A stretch of 64,000 bases of DNA from Bacteroidota bacterium (GTDB lineage Bacteria; Bacteroidota; Ignavibacteria; UBA10030; SZUA-254): assembly GCA_020056225.1 (NCBI GenBank), contig JAGVIE010000023.1, positions 1-64,000 of the forward strand, written 5' to 3'. A program made the translations under genes and the position numbers. This document shows, piece after piece, positions 16,019 through 20,985 of this stretch (position 1 is the first letter of the stretch; the number at the start of each line of letters is the position of its first letter). Below the pieces are notes generated by a model. It worked only from the letters and a program-made list of their open reading frames with translations. It searched no databases and was not told where the DNA came from.

Positions 16019-16197
16019 GTATTATATGCTCTTATGTTTGATAGAAATATAGCCAGATGCAGTGAGAGAAGCAAGAAAATGAAGAAGATTTAATACTAAG
16101 CTGAAAATCCGGCAAAAAATGTGTGAGAACAAGTGATGCTTTTAATCGGATGTTTGTTTTTGTATTTTCCTTCCCCATTTTCTATATTATTTACACT

Positions 16198-16998
16198 ATG
16201 AATTCATTCGAACTAATATCATTATCACGGCTCAAAACCTACTCCAAACTGTTACAAAAGAAATACCGTCAAACCGACGGGAAGTTTTTGGTAGAAGGAA
16301 TTCACCTCGTAGAGGAGGCATTGAAATCCGATTGGGAAGTAGAAGCGATTGTAGTAAGCGATCATGGTTTAGTGAAAGAGATTGGGAAATTAGAAAGCTG
16401 GGATGTTAGACAGGATATAGAATTATTGGAATGCTCGGAGAGGGAGTTCAATAAACTTACAGATACAGTTACCTCCCAGGGAATTGTGGCAGTTGTAAAA
16501 ATCAAGTATAATACGCTGGAAGGTTTTTGGGAAAAACTTCCCGAGCGCTCAATCATAGTTGCGCTTGATGATGTCGCTGACCCGGGAAACATAGGAACAA
16601 TCCTCCGTACGTGCGATTGGTTTGGGGTCGACGGTGTAGTGCTGAGTGAAAATTCTGTCGAGTTGTATAACTCCAAAGTTATACGGTCAACGATGGGCGC
16701 AATCTTTCATCTTCCGGTATTCATAGATGTTGATTTACGATCCACGATTCAAGATGCACGCAAGGCTGGATTTAATGTTATCACGACTGTTCTTGATGGC
16801 GGAAAACCATTGAACAAATTTTCGTTTCCTGAAAGATCGATCATTGTTTTTGGGAATGAAACACATGGTATTTCGAAAGAGATTGAACAAATGGCTGACG
16901 CATCGATTACGATACCAAAATATGGAAAAGCAGAATCGTTGAATGTTGCTATCTCTTGTGGTATCATTCTGAACGCAGCCAGTACATATCAAATCTGA
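16198..16998 (+). CDS. TrmH/SpoU-family RNA 2'-O-methyltransferase
   Basis: A 266-aa SPOUT-class SAM-dependent 2'-O-methyltransferase for rRNA or tRNA. The N-terminal ~95 residues form the substrate-binding domain (KYRQTDGKFLVEGIHLVEEAL). The three SpoU motifs are visible: DDVADPGNIGTILRTCDWFG with the catalytic Arg/Asn, then IIVFGNETHGIS, then IPKYGKAESLNVAISCGIIL, which makes the trefoil knot. The frame stays open to an ATG at 16123, but that would add a 25-residue hydrophobic leader not expected for this family, so ATG 16198 was chosen. No strong ribosome site is visible. The gene is divergent from rfaE1. The RNA target cannot be told from sequence. Confidence 0.88.
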   Translation: MNSFELISLSRLKTYSKLLQKKYRQTDGKFLVEGIHLVEEALKSDWEVEAIVVSDHGLVKEIGKLESWDVRQDIELLECSEREFNKLTDTVTSQGIVAVVKIKYNTLEGFWEKLPERSIIVALDDVADPGNIGTILRTCDWFGVDGVVLSENSVELYNSKVIRSTMGAIFHLPVFIDVDLRSTIQDARKAGFNVITTVLDGGKPLNKFSFPERSIIVFGNETHGISKEIEQMADASITIPKYGKAESLNVAISCGIILNAASTYQI

Positions 16999-17231
16999 CA
17001 TCTTTTTTAGTGTCATTAGTCATTGGTCACCTGTCACTGGTTATTAACATCAACAATCTTGAAAATTGAAACATAAATCGTGAATCATCCATCTTGAATC
17101 GTGCATCATTCTGCGTTTGGGTGCTGTCCTAAGTTCGTTTTATTGTCCTAATTTGATTTTGAAATAATCGTTCTGTTTCGTTAGATTGATACCCTCTATC
17201 ATTGTTCTTTCATCCATAAAAAGGTATCCAA

Positions 17232-17627
17232 TTGGCAAAGATTAAGGCAAGTGAGATGCTCTCAGATATTGTCCGTTTCCGGGATGGTATCTTTACTGAA
17301 GAACTACTACTACAAGCTCAAAATGCGTATCAATCGCTTGTAAACGAAAAGATATGTAATGACCTGCACAGTTCTTCTACATCTGAAATTGCGAGCATGG
17401 TCGATGATATTCTTGCTCTGAACACCTATCCAGAGATCAAACTTTATCTTGCGAAAAAGAATCCAAATCTAATTGCTTTTCTATTTGCTCGAATACAACA
17501 CTTTGTCCATTATTTGGAGTCTTTGGAAGATTTATCCGTACAGTTTCTAACTCCGCCAAAATCTGTTCTGAGGTGGGGCGTGGTAGATTTTTGGAATGAT
17601 TCTCCACCTTCGAGTGACCGATATTAA
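17232..17627 (+). CDS. Hypothetical protein, 131 aa (TTG start)
   Basis: A small, mostly helical soluble protein that I do not recognise. The start is TTG, supported by AAGG eight bases upstream. There is no signal peptide, membrane segment or Cys/His cluster. The C-terminal ~30 residues are proline- and serine-rich and look disordered. It is followed by two hairpins (17644-17688 and 17697-17725) before the convergent transposase. It is the first gene of the accessory island and may have arrived with it. Confidence 0.45.
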   Translation: MAKIKASEMLSDIVRFRDGIFTEELLLQAQNAYQSLVNEKICNDLHSSSTSEIASMVDDILALNTYPEIKLYLAKKNPNLIAFLFARIQHFVHYLESLEDLSVQFLTPPKSVLRWGVVDFWNDSPPSSDRY

Positions 17628-17643
17628 CCATTGAAGTTTTTCT

Positions 17644-17688
17644 CCTTGACTTTTTATTATTAGTATCGTAGATTACGATGTGTCAAGG
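17644..17688. repeat. Nested inverted repeats between hypothetical gene and transposase
   Basis: CCTTGAC at 17644-17650 pairs with GTCAAGG at 17682-17688. Inside, ATCGTA (665-670) and TACGAT (674-679) make a second hairpin with a three-base loop. No T-run follows. It could be part of the left end of the transposase element or a weak terminator. Confidence 0.45.
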
Positions 17689-17696
17689 ATGTATTT

Positions 17697-17730
17697 GAAG
17701 CTCCACATTCACCGTGTGGGGCTTCTCTCG
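17697..17730 (+). terminator. Hairpin terminator candidate
   Basis: An 11-bp stem (one G-U pair) between 17697-17707 and 17715-17725 with a seven-base loop, followed by TCTCGTTT. It lies 69 bases after the stop at 17627 and between convergent genes. The T-run is weak. Confidence 0.4.
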
Positions 17731-17789
17731 TTTATGGGCACTTTGTGAATCTATATATTTATATTCTCTTTGTCAAGCTAACGTTTTGT

Positions 17790-18629
17790 TTACGCCGCCT
17801 GCCGTTGTTCTTCGTGGTTCAAGAATCTTTCCCATGACCAAATATACTTCGTTAATCCCGCCTGCATCGCGGGTGTCATTCTCAACGATTCGTGTACTCT
17901 GGCAAAGTTATAGTGCCAGAAATGAAGGGCTAACGCTGCATTTAAGTTCTCAAGTTTCTTTGAATAAGCATTTGTCAATCGTGTAAATCTCCGCATTTGC
18001 ATTCTCATTGTCAAGTTCTGACGTTCTACAAATGACGTACTGATATACTTTCTGTCGGGATAACCTGTAATCGGACGTATTATCGCCCTCACAATTCTTG
18101 CCGGACTGTATCGTCTTTCGCCTTGAGGTTCTTCGTCATAAACTTTGTGAACTTGACCGTAATGAATATCATCACCGAAAACCCTATCTACTGCATCTCT
18201 ATATCCGGTGAATGAATCGGTTGAAAGCTGAAAAATAGTATTGATTCTCGTTCTCAGTTCCATCATAAACGAAGCGGCGAGATGTGAGGTACGTTTACCT
18301 ACTCTGAATGTTGGAATGAGTTTCGTATCAGCGTCTAAGGCAACAAAAACATATTGATCGCCTAACTCTAAACTACCTGCTTCATCTTGTTTCAAGTGCT
18401 TCTGTTTCTTTCCTACAAACGTCCAAATCTCGTCTACCTGCAATCTTCCTACCTTGAGGTTAACCATTTCACGGTTCAAAAACTCAGCGCATTGTTCGCC
18501 TACTGAAACCGTTAATCGCATGATCGTATCTCGATGTACGCCGGACATTCTTTCAATGGCTCTGATTGAGTTACCTTCTGAAAGAAGGGACAAGACTAAG
18601 ACTTTCTTTTCGTTTGGTAATGTGTTCAT
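17790..18629 (-). CDS. IS1-like DDE transposase
   Basis: 279 aa. An N-terminal helix-turn-helix (SLLSEGNSIRAIERMSGVHRDT) is followed by a DDE catalytic core: first Asp in LQVDEIWTFVG, second in STDSFTGYRDAV, and Glu in SFVERQNLTMRMQMRRFTRL. This pattern matches IS1-family transposases found in many environmental genomes. The frame is intact, and no programmed frameshift is needed, unlike enterobacterial IS1. The flanks hold several hairpins (17644-17725, 18711-18741), but I could not match a pair of terminal inverted repeats or a target duplication, so element limits are unknown. It is probably active or recently active. Confidence 0.82.
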   Translation of the reverse strand: MNTLPNEKKVLVLSLLSEGNSIRAIERMSGVHRDTIMRLTVSVGEQCAEFLNREMVNLKVGRLQVDEIWTFVGKKQKHLKQDEAGSLELGDQYVFVALDADTKLIPTFRVGKRTSHLAASFMMELRTRINTIFQLSTDSFTGYRDAVDRVFGDDIHYGQVHKVYDEEPQGERRYSPARIVRAIIRPITGYPDRKYISTSFVERQNLTMRMQMRRFTRLTNAYSKKLENLNAALALHFWHYNFARVHESLRMTPAMQAGLTKYIWSWERFLNHEEQRQAA

Positions 18630-18710
18630 ATTACACTCCTTGATTTTGTGCCGTAAGGAGCGTATATTGTATTAGGTCTTTTGTCGCTCCAAACAGCGAT
18701 GATTGATTAG

Positions 18711-18741
18711 GGTTTGTAGGTACTTCGAATACTTACAAACC
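18711..18741. repeat. 12-bp-stem hairpin downstream of HTH gene
   Basis: GGTTTGTAGGTA (18711-18722) pairs with TACTTACAAACC (18730-18741) over 12 bp including one G-U, around a short loop. On the minus strand it lies 16 bases past the stop of the HTH gene and could end its transcript, though no T-run follows on that strand. On the plus strand TGTTTTATTT follows. It could also mark the right end of the transposase element. Confidence 0.5.
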
Positions 18742-18757
18742 TGTTTTATTTATAAAC

Positions 18758-18955
18758 TTATTTTTGCCTTTTCTTCCATGCTTCAACTTCTTCTTTTGAA
18801 ACTAACGTGAGAGTTTTGAATTTGTACGTTGTCAGCTTCTCATCGTAAAGATAATTACGAATTGCTGTTGTTTTAATTCCTAACTCCGTTGCAGCTTCAT
18901 CTACTGTGAAGAAATCAGCATCATTGACTTGTTTGAGTTGTTTTACTTTATTCAT
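18758..18955 (-). CDS. Excisionase-like helix-turn-helix protein
   Basis: A 65-aa MerR/excisionase-type DNA-binding protein. FFTVDEAATELGIKTTAIRNYLY is the helix-turn-helix, followed by a short beta wing (TLTLVSKEEVEAWKKRQK) that ends the domain, as in the HTH_17 family. Such proteins act as recombination directionality factors or small regulators of mobile elements. It lies between the transposase and the tRNA-Ser-like gene, whose 3' end is 95 bases away. No integrase is present, so excisionase activity is only a family-level inference. Confidence 0.7.
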   Translation of the reverse strand: MNKVKQLKQVNDADFFTVDEAATELGIKTTAIRNYLYDEKLTTYKFKTLTLVSKEEVEAWKKRQK

Positions 18956-19050
18956 ATATACAATATAAGTGATAGAGTATCAAATGTCAAGTGTAAAGTG
19001 AGAAATATCCTCTTGACTTTGAATTTTGTGATGCGTATCTTATAAATAAG

Positions 19051-19135
19051 CGGAAAGGGTAGGGGTCGAACCTACTACTCGTTAGAGTACCTCAGACATA
19101 TCAATCCGGTGCTTTAACCGTTCAGCCACCTCTCC
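19051..19135 (-). tRNA. tRNA-Ser-like gene with irregular anticodon arm
   Basis: An 85-base class II tRNA on the minus strand. The acceptor GGAGAGG/CCTTTCC pairs with one wobble. The D arm has a three-bp GCT/AGC stem and a GG in the loop. The long variable arm TACTC-TAAC-GAGTA is perfect, and the T arm GTAGG-TTCGACC-CCTAC is perfect. The discriminator is G, as in tRNA-Ser. No CCA is encoded. The anticodon arm does not fold normally: CCGGA and GTCTG mispair around TTGATAT, leaving either TGA (Ser) or GAT in the anticodon place. It may be a serine tRNA pseudogene or one altered by recombination. Confidence 0.6.
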
Positions 19136-19329
19136 GTTGTTTGTTACATTATTATTCTAAGCGGTATCACTGTATACACCTTCCTTTCTCAAGTGCGTTA
19201 ACACTTGTTAAAGTTTATAGTTTTGGTTGAAGCCCTCTTTTGAGGGCTTTTTTTATTAGTAAGATATTTAATCGTATAGATGTTACCTATTTTACCTTTA
19301 AAGTAATAAAAGTAAAAAAAGTAATACGC
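19136..19329. other. Intergenic with possible small transcript
   Basis: No coding frame. It holds a weak hairpin, AAGTG-CGTTAA-CACTT near 19190-19206, and the strong plus-strand terminator at 19230-19256. No plus-strand gene lies upstream for it to end. Confidence 0.4.
19230..19256 (+). terminator. Strong intrinsic terminator
   Basis: AAGCCCTC (19230-19237) pairs perfectly with GAGGGCTT (19242-19249) around TTTT, followed by a T-run on the plus strand. The nearest plus-strand gene ends 1.6 kb earlier, so it either ends an unannotated small RNA or is a leftover. On the minus strand no T-run follows. Confidence 0.75.
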
Positions 19330-20115
19330 TCATTCGTTATATTTTGAGGCGGCTTTGCGGCAATACCCAAGTTCGGAAAGCATCTTACTGATAAGATGAT
19401 AGGCAGAATTGCGCGATTTAAAAGTTTCCAATGTGCCAAGATTATCCATTCCAATCGCTTGAGCGATCTGATACTTAATCTCTCTCCTTATGGTTTGACC
19501 CTTTGGTAATTTACGCTTTTGGCACTCCTTTCTACATTCTTCCAACAAAACTTTCTTAACCGATGCTCTCCCCTGTGATGGAGCAAAAAAATTTCCCATA
19601 CGTTCTCCTTCTGTTTGGATATTTGTTTTCGTGCTTAACTCAAGATTGTGTCTTTTCACTGCTACTTCAAGACGATTAATGTATACCGTTTTAAATTCAC
19701 TATAAATGCTCGTAACGGGTAGAAACATCGAATTAAAATCGTTGCTTCTCCCAAGAGATGCAGCAATTCTTCTGAAGGTCTGTTCTTGCTGGCTTAATGC
19801 AACCTTGTACCGTTTATAGAAAAGATTAACTATCTTCACGTTCAAAGGCTTTGTAATTGTGCTACTGAATCGGTGTATTACACTCTCAAAAGCGGATAAA
19901 AAATCCGCACCTATATTCTCGGCGTGTTCCCTTAATAAGTTATATCGGTTGAATATCGGATCGATACTTTGATCCTGTTGTATTAACGAAATACTCTCAT
20001 CGTTTATTTTCTGTTTTAATTCTCTTGACCTCTCCCGATATAGATTACGAAGCTCTGTTTCAAATAAGTCAAACACCTCATTGAATGATTCTTCATTCGG
20101 ACTATCATTGTTCAT
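19330..20115 (-). CDS. Hypothetical protein, 261 aa
   Basis: I do not recognise this protein. It is soluble, predicted mostly helical, acidic at the N-terminus (residues 1-50) and basic in the C-terminal third, where KRKLPKGQTIRREIKYQ suggests nucleic-acid contact. The ending NSAYHLISKMLSELGYCRKAASKYNE looks like a compact helical tail. There is no signal peptide or membrane segment. Its 5' leader carries the elaborate structure at 20131-20238, only 15 bases upstream. The gene lies in the accessory island, so a plasmid- or phage-type role is conceivable but unsupported by any motif. Confidence 0.6.
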   Translation of the reverse strand: MNNDSPNEESFNEVFDLFETELRNLYRERSRELKQKINDESISLIQQDQSIDPIFNRYNLLREHAENIGADFLSAFESVIHRFSSTITKPLNVKIVNLFYKRYKVALSQQEQTFRRIAASLGRSNDFNSMFLPVTSIYSEFKTVYINRLEVAVKRHNLELSTKTNIQTEGERMGNFFAPSQGRASVKKVLLEECRKECQKRKLPKGQTIRREIKYQIAQAIGMDNLGTLETFKSRNSAYHLISKMLSELGYCRKAASKYNE

Positions 20116-20130
20116 AGGTATAAGAATAAA

Positions 20131-20238
20131 AAATCCTTCCCGTGCCTTAGAGCAAACTCTTGTTTACCCCCGCTCTCAATGGAGCGGACGAGAAGGATTT
20201 CTAAATTCTTTTATCACACATCTAAGGCGGTGTGCGAT
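20131..20238 (-). ncRNA. Candidate structured leader or small RNA
   Basis: Read on the minus strand, this leader forms four elements. First, a hairpin with stem 20231-20238/20213-20220 (8 bp, one wobble) has GCCTTAGA in its loop. Second, a long stem pairs 20200-20188 with 20143-20131 (12 of 13 pairs). Third, inside it lies CCGCTC-loop-GAGCGG (20170-20187). Fourth, a small AGAG/CTCT hairpin (20149-20160). The loop GCCTTAGA (20221-20228) is exactly complementary to TCTAAGGC at 20144-20151, allowing a pseudoknot or switch. The long stem is followed by a T-run (from 20133 down), like an attenuator, 15 bases before the 261-aa gene. No known riboswitch class is recognised. Confidence 0.45.
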
Positions 20239-20365
20239 GTTTTCTTGCTCAAATTTACGTCATTTTTACACCTTATTCAAGTCAAAAAGTATATTTGATT
20301 TATCCATATATTCTATTTACTTTTGTCAATACGGGTTCAAGTAAAACCAACATTAAGGATATATC

Positions 20366-20734
20366 ATGGAATTAACACCCCAAGAACTTACGATTATTAG
20401 CACTCTTGCTGGTACTTTCATTGGCTCTCTTTTCATGTATCTTGGAATGAGGGCTTCAATAAAATCAGAAGAGCGAAAACATTATCGAGATATAGTAATA
20501 AAAGCAGCGCTTGAAAATTGGAAGGCATCAATCGACTCAGCAAAATTAAAAGCATCTGCGACTGGAGGCCCTCAACTCGCTTATCCTTTGGATTCATTTA
20601 TTATTCACATGATAAAGTTGTTAGAACTGGTGCTCAATAAAAATCTCAAAAAATCAAATGTCATCGATAGATTAAAAGAGGTTGATGAAATTACTGATCT
20701 GGTTATAAAACACGTAAATACTAAAGTTTTCTGA
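20366..20734 (+). CDS. Small single-span membrane protein, 122 aa
   Basis: Unrecognised family. One membrane helix spans residues ~9-28 (IISTLAGTFIGSLFMYLGM). It is followed by a ~95-residue helical cytoplasmic part with a hydrophobic heptad-like stretch (IIHMIKLLELVLNKNLKK). TAAGGA eight bases before the ATG is a good ribosome site. Its 3' end overlaps the convergent small membrane gene at 20721-20876 by 14 bases. The layout of small membrane proteins next to a transposase island resembles phage or defence accessory genes, but no specific function can be claimed. Confidence 0.55.
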   Translation: MELTPQELTIISTLAGTFIGSLFMYLGMRASIKSEERKHYRDIVIKAALENWKASIDSAKLKASATGGPQLAYPLDSFIIHMIKLLELVLNKNLKKSNVIDRLKEVDEITDLVIKHVNTKVF

Positions 20735-20876
20735 TCCTTTCCAAAATATCCAACCAAACATCGATTATTTTATCAAAAGGATGAGTGAATGCTATAATCG
20801 TTGTTATTACGCCCAGCATATATCCCGAAAGAACAGCCACTATAAGTAACCAATCAGAAGGATTAGTATTATTCAT
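20721..20876 (-). CDS. Short membrane protein, 51 aa
   Basis: From ATG 20876 the product is a 51-aa peptide with one membrane helix (LLIVAVLSGYMLGVITTIIAF) and a charged amphipathic tail (DVWLDILERIRKL). A GGAAAGGA ribosome site lies about ten bases upstream, which favours this start over the ATG at 20921. It is convergent with and overlaps the 122-aa membrane protein by 14 bases. No family is recognised. Confidence 0.45.
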   Translation of the reverse strand: MNNTNPSDWLLIVAVLSGYMLGVITTIIAFTHPFDKIIDVWLDILERIRKL

Positions 20877-20985
20877 ATTAGGACAATCCTTTCCGAATAA
20901 GGACAGTACCTGCGTTTGCAATTCTTCTCCTTTTTTCCTAAATTTTCATTCAATACTAATCAATTTCCATTTAATCAAATAATAC

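Follow-up and report, generated by a model that had tools for sequence, protein, structure and literature searches.

As far as we know, protein repressors are the usual means by which satellites control their operons, and P4 is the best-known case of control by RNA. A structured RNA is also catalogued between int and alpA in proteobacterial elements, as the int-alpA RNA motif of Rfam. In P4, the CI RNA directs premature termination in the leader, which silences the replication genes (PMC4825925), and complementarity between a non-coding RNA and a leader is known in P4, phiR73, P1, P7 and N15 (PMC7567579). IsrK of Gifsy-1 is a phage RNA with an intrinsic-terminator end and partial readthrough into the genes behind it (PMC4825925). 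Here we followed up a leader RNA ahead of a gene for a 261-aa protein in a 64,000-nucleotide stretch of a Bacteroidota genome (contig JAGVIE010000023.1), the whole of which we call the window. Like the P4 leader and its CI RNA (c4, RF01695), the new RNA is a leader with short complementary strands ahead of the replication genes of satellite-like elements, and for it, too, we propose control by early termination. Unlike c4, to which it has no Rfam match, it forms an intramolecular pseudoknot of fixed distance around a three-way domain, and its outer stem ends in a U-run. As with the int-alpA motif, a structured RNA lies in a small integrative element between the integrase and the operon that follows, but cmscan gave no match at E up to 5 and alpA was not seen. 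IsrK differs in sequence, structure and host, and acts on a downstream translation site, unlike the role proposed here. Moreover, type III toxin-antitoxin systems (ToxIN) likewise combine a structured, pseudoknotted RNA, a terminator and a gene directly behind, whereas the present RNA is a single unit without tandem repeats and no ToxN-like protein follows it (no family match, and an all-helical model).

The leader RNA extends over 20238-20129 of the minus strand and consists of a P0 hairpin, a long P1 that encloses P2 and P3, and a pseudoknot (Table 1). An earlier note on this DNA had described an 8-bp hairpin, a long stem ending in a T-run and two inner hairpins, and all of these are present in the sequence; P1 is 15 bp long with two G-U pairs among them and runs into the T-run. 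The complementarity on which the note had based its reading was confirmed as exact, the DNA octamer GCCTTAGA (20228-20221) in the P0 loop pairing with TCTAAGGC (20151-20144). The minimum free energy of the leader was -52.5 kcal/mol, compared with -31.4 +/- 3.7 kcal/mol for shuffled sequences (z -5.7; 0 of 200 as good), and the P0 helix that encloses the loop strand had a p of 0.001 in the window RNA. The octamer pair had been taken to imply either a pseudoknot or a choice between two folds. The pseudoknot stood, as it covaries in homologues, and the choice of folds fell away: with a 5-bp P3 (UAAAC/GUUUG), all eight pseudoknot pairs and P0 to P3 form together. We therefore dropped the idea of a two-fold switch based on the octamer: every stem can form alongside the pseudoknot, and no choice between folds is needed.

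Table 1. Features of the leader RNA and of the surrounding insertion in the window
Feature	Position	Strand	Details or basis
Insertion of about 3.9 kb with RNA and gene	16983..20913	.	Absent from two relatives
IS1-like transposase, inside insertion	17790-18629	-	
Excisionase-like HTH_17 protein, inside insertion	18758..18955	-	Family searches
tRNA-like sequence, inside insertion	19050..19135	-	Degenerate Ser/Leu type, anticodon unclear
Gene for 261-aa protein, predicted all-helical	19330..20115	-	N-domain about 1-180, C-domain about 186-261
U-run (TTTTTT) after G+C part of P1	20128..20133	-	Intrinsic-terminator-like; U-run in 14/14 homologues
P1 3' strand ACGGGAAGGAUUUUU	20143-20129	-	End overlaps U-run; fold; covariation
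Pseudoknot 3' strand UCUAAGGC, P3-P1 junction	20151-20144	-	Complementarity matrix and covariation
P3 hairpin (UAAAC AAGA GUUUG)	20166-20153	-	Fold; covariation
P2 hairpin (CCGCUC...GAGCGG)	20187-20170	-	Fold; covariation
P1 5' strand AGAAAUCCUUCUCGU	20202-20188	-	Fold; covariation of outer P1
Pseudoknot 5' strand GCCUUAGA, in P0 loop	20228-20221	-	Complementarity matrix and covariation
P0 hairpin	20238-20231 with 20220-20213	-	8 bp, loop CCGCCUUAGA; computed fold
Predicted Bacteroidetes-type promoter	20250..20281	-	-33 CTTG 20281-20278, N20, -7 TAAATTTG 20257-20250; consensus scan

A second leader was found ahead of a 145-aa gene in locus L003 that matches the C-domain of the 261-aa protein; it has the same layout in different letters. 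Because a two-sequence MAFFT alignment misplaced P1, we built the first covariance model (R1) from the window's own sequence alone, and in other genomes it matched L029 (E 1.4e-17) and L030 (2.9e-10) strongly and L032 and L033 more weakly. A model from six sequences in which only P1, P2 and P3 were paired (R2) added L041 to L045, and R3 added L046, L047 and L048. The family thus comprises 14 RNAs, the window copy and 13 further copies from covariance-model searches of related genomes. The RNA was present in 11 of the 294 sampled genomes of the class (R2) and in 8 of 98 of the order (R3), whereas a phylum sample of 148 genomes returned only the window's own genome and one false positive. Among viral contigs, a P1 pattern picked out 71 stretches, none of which matched R3. 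Two model hits were rejected, L031 as a palindromic repeat encoding a PPLKKG-type peptide (L031:1467-1623) and L049 as a plain terminator, and at L004/L027 the C-domain is present and the RNA is unconvincing. The earlier note had regarded the leader as a structured, undescribed RNA directly ahead of the 261-aa gene, and this holds: Rfam 15, including C4, int-alpA and the known riboswitches, gave no match over the window RNA at the gathering threshold, and at E up to 5 no family fell on the RNA, whether in the window itself or in any of 10 homologous loci. Since homologues exist, chance is ruled out for the window structure, and the uncatalogued family is almost certainly real. Its wider setting is mobile, satellite-like elements, and the leader is more than the oddity of a single genome.

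The note had named compensatory changes, in the long stem as well as in the octamer pair, as evidence that would support the element, and the homologous leaders show them in both. All 14 RNAs have, 19-26 nt upstream of P1, a strand that can pair with the junction; in the deviant L047 its partner is found in the P3 loop or in an enlarged junction. The sequences of these complementary strands differ between elements. In R2 and R3 the pseudoknot columns were present as unpaired sequence and never paired. For 11 RNAs we compared the junction with the 65 bases upstream of P1 in an 11 x 11 matrix; each RNA had a partner of 5 to 8 bp (shuffled-upstream p from below 0.001 to 0.036), and the upstream regions scored best with their own or a same-type junction; the few exceptions, for which a foreign junction scores slightly higher, are L040 and the short-junction group L038/L039/L041. 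The pseudoknot pairs include GCCUUAGA/UCUAAGGC, GCGUUGGA/UCCAACGC and CUUCCAAA/UUUGGAAG, as well as GUGCUGA/UCAGCAC, UUGCGAG/UUCGCAA, UUUCAGU/AUUGAAA and UUAGCA/UGCUAA, and that of L048 has five pairs only. When helices were set by hand, a procedure that favours pairing, the pseudoknot had 91% of its cells paired, compared with 52% when strands were swapped between RNAs, and the corresponding values for hand-set outer P1, P2 and P3 were 97, 97 and 100%. Double changes occur at all eight pseudoknot positions and compensatory changes also in P1, P2 and P3. About 8 of 14 RNAs have a hairpin around the pseudoknot 5' strand (combined p 1.3e-5). G-U pairs occur in P1, P2, P3 and the pseudoknot, which points to RNA and not DNA.

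At least nine RNA copies lie in integrative elements, typically in the order tyrosine integrase, RNA, variable first gene and then usually replication genes, with TerS in some; in most elements the RNA stands between integrase and replication genes. Seven of these elements, 5.3-8.7 kb long, are bounded by 45-80-nt duplications of tRNA genes. That of L026/L148 (5.8 kb, with an 80-nt tRNA-Ser duplication at its bounds) carries integrase, RNA, a C-domain gene, p138, a DnaD-like loader, a primase-helicase and TerS. The six others (5.3 to 8.7 kb), with 45-67-nt duplications of tRNA-Phe, tRNA-Arg (three), tRNA-Glu or tRNA-Ser genes, carry an integrase and some or all of p138, a DnaB-type helicase, DnaD and a weak TerS match. 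TerS is strong in L026 (phrog_57, 5.7e-27) and weak in L139 and L143. All seven bounded elements show the PICI-like set of integrase, tRNA att duplication, replication module, small size and no capsid genes, the last according to ORF lists and to family searches of some elements. The RNA-bearing integrative elements look like phage satellites, and there is good support for the tie between such satellite-like elements and the RNA family. Among 48 genomes of the order, six loci had p138, and the RNA was found at all five that had enough upstream sequence, that of the sixth being too short for the check. The p138 proteins (L026:5426-5842 and relatives) form an undescribed family of 135-145 aa that is typical of the RNA-bearing elements; no Pfam or PHROG match was obtained for them, and a p138 scan of viral contigs gave no match. 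One genome, G013, holds two elements (L046 and L048), whose junction strands share UUCGGAA. To our knowledge, almost no satellites of this lineage have been studied, and an uncatalogued RNA family with strong comparative support is hereby tied to satellite-like elements of a poorly studied group of Bacteroidota.

The window copy stands in a different setting, an insertion that contains an IS1-like transposase, an excisionase-like HTH protein, a degenerate tRNA-like sequence, the 261-aa gene and the RNA. Two relatives (L055 and L053) align to the window up to about 16982 and resume at 20914 with about 71-90 bases between, and in the relatives G007 and G013 the gene at 16123-16998 stands almost directly ahead of nuoA. 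The tRNA-like sequence is possibly a decayed Ser/Leu tRNA or an att remnant. Neither integrase nor p138 was found in the insertion, and this solo copy lacks the PICI-like feature set. Solo cassettes of RNA and gene occur in three genomes (the window's own, L145 and L146), and the solo copies have a common GC[C/G]UU[A/G]GA type of pseudoknot.

The 261-aa protein is predicted, with good confidence, to be all-helical (pLDDT 84.8). It had no Pfam, PHROG, PADLOC, NCBIfam or PDB assignment, a fold search gave no PDB match at E below 0.6, and close relatives were absent from the genome contigs, viral contigs and plasmids searched. Its C-domain is common to the first gene of the L026 element, and its N-domain is fused in L014 (L014:1492-2682) to a region that is TIR-like as judged by eye. 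The N-domain is possibly a sensor domain of defence proteins. At L002 the N-domain lies beside an abortive-infection-like gene. Loci differ in the first gene that follows the RNA; the encoded proteins are mostly unrelated in sequence, and no family match was obtained for these first genes.

In our model, which we hold to be about evenly poised between right and wrong, the RNA is a pseudoknot-braced intrinsic terminator that gates the downstream operon by transcription attenuation. Transcription would start just 5' of P0, as predicted in the window from a promoter that scored 10/11 in the consensus scan (shuffle p 0.007). The transcript would fold into the pseudoknot of P0 loop and J3/1 and the P1-P2-P3 three-way domain, and the pseudoknot, because its 3' strand runs straight into the P1 3' strand, should stack on P1 and brace it, so that P1 and the U-run would together work as an intrinsic terminator. 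While the element is resident, the majority of transcripts would end at the U-run, which would hold down expression of the variable first gene and of the replication genes behind it, and readthrough would follow upon a signal, which may be a helper-phage factor, an antiterminator or the helical protein that the element encodes. The solo copy in the window would gate the 261-aa gene only. Attenuation fits because at least five U directly follow P1 in 14 of 14 RNAs, an AUG or predicted gene start usually lies within about 30 nt of the U-run (in the window, an ATG 12 bases 3' of it), and replication genes stand behind. Against it count the branched insert of more than 40 nt that interrupts P1, which is unusual for an intrinsic terminator, the promoter matches, which are non-significant in about half of the loci (best supported in the window and in L042, L043, L044, L046 and L048), and the first longer ORF past the RNA in L041 and L043, which is of a different protein type. 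No antiterminator fold or ligand was identified for the leader RNA, and hence we infer the regulated step. If there is a second RNA gate beside that of P4, structurally unrelated to it, early termination would seem to be a recurring solution; the RNA is compact enough for in vitro testing.

The main rival to the attenuator is a trans-acting role like that of P4 CI or phage c4, which we think unlikely: the terminated leader would accumulate and, by pairing through its loop or junction strands with a nascent leader, whether of its own element or of an incoming one, force termination. Complementary strands that are hypervariable, set on a P1 frame that is more conserved, would suit it, as would the P0 loop that presents the strand in about 8 of 14 RNAs, the leader position in satellite-like elements and the precedents of complementarity between non-coding RNA and leader (PMC7567579, PMC4825925); however, the two partner strands belong to one molecule and are a fixed distance apart, as befits an intramolecular pseudoknot. 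A determinant of exclusion is also mildly disfavoured by the coexistence in G013 of L046 and L048 with the same core UUCGGAA. With the attenuator itself, the hypervariable loop-junction pair on the conserved terminator frame could conceivably set satellite identity as an element-specific lock, a tentative idea to which we give little weight; if true, the RNA would gate its own operon and recognise or exclude either related elements or the signal of a helper, which would be a new form of lysogeny control by RNA.

Quite unlikely, in our judgement, is a stable RNA that works together with the protein encoded behind it, perhaps as an RNA antitoxin or as the partner of a defence protein, with the U-run setting the ratio of RNA to mRNA as it does in type III toxin-antitoxin loci. 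Although the three solo cassettes and the fusion of the N-domain to a TIR-like region would be in line with such a pair, the proteins behind the RNA are for the most part unrelated in sequence and none matched a toxin family, tandem repeats are missing and most copies lie in replication operons. The riboswitch, ribozyme and DNA-hairpin readings rank low. The switch suspected in the earlier note was not borne out, since the pseudoknot is compatible with the other helices and the downstream genes are not metabolic; a compact three-way junction, a loop-junction pseudoknot and a terminator resembling an expression platform do recall a ligand-binding riboswitch, which we nevertheless regard as very unlikely, because the RNA is bound to mobile-element genes, its junction and loop letters lack the conservation expected of a binding pocket and an alternative antiterminator was not seen. 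A folded single DNA strand serving replication, packaging or recombination, for which one might invoke the integrase and replication genes of the elements and the STAXI motif, which has been discussed as possible ssDNA (PMC2864571), is highly improbable given the G-U pairs in all four helices, the constant location just ahead of genes and on their strand, and the distance from att sites.

A further point against the attenuator, which is the preferred reading, concerns two of the solo copies, L035 and L037: they follow a small gene, with which they may be co-transcribed. A gene for a short 'RNPAAVALGRLGGLKGG' protein stands upstream of the L145 and L146 copies. This small lysine/arginine-rich protein (RNPAAVALGRLGGLKGG) is encoded directly upstream of two solo RNAs, at L029:1256-1489 and L030:1633-1869.
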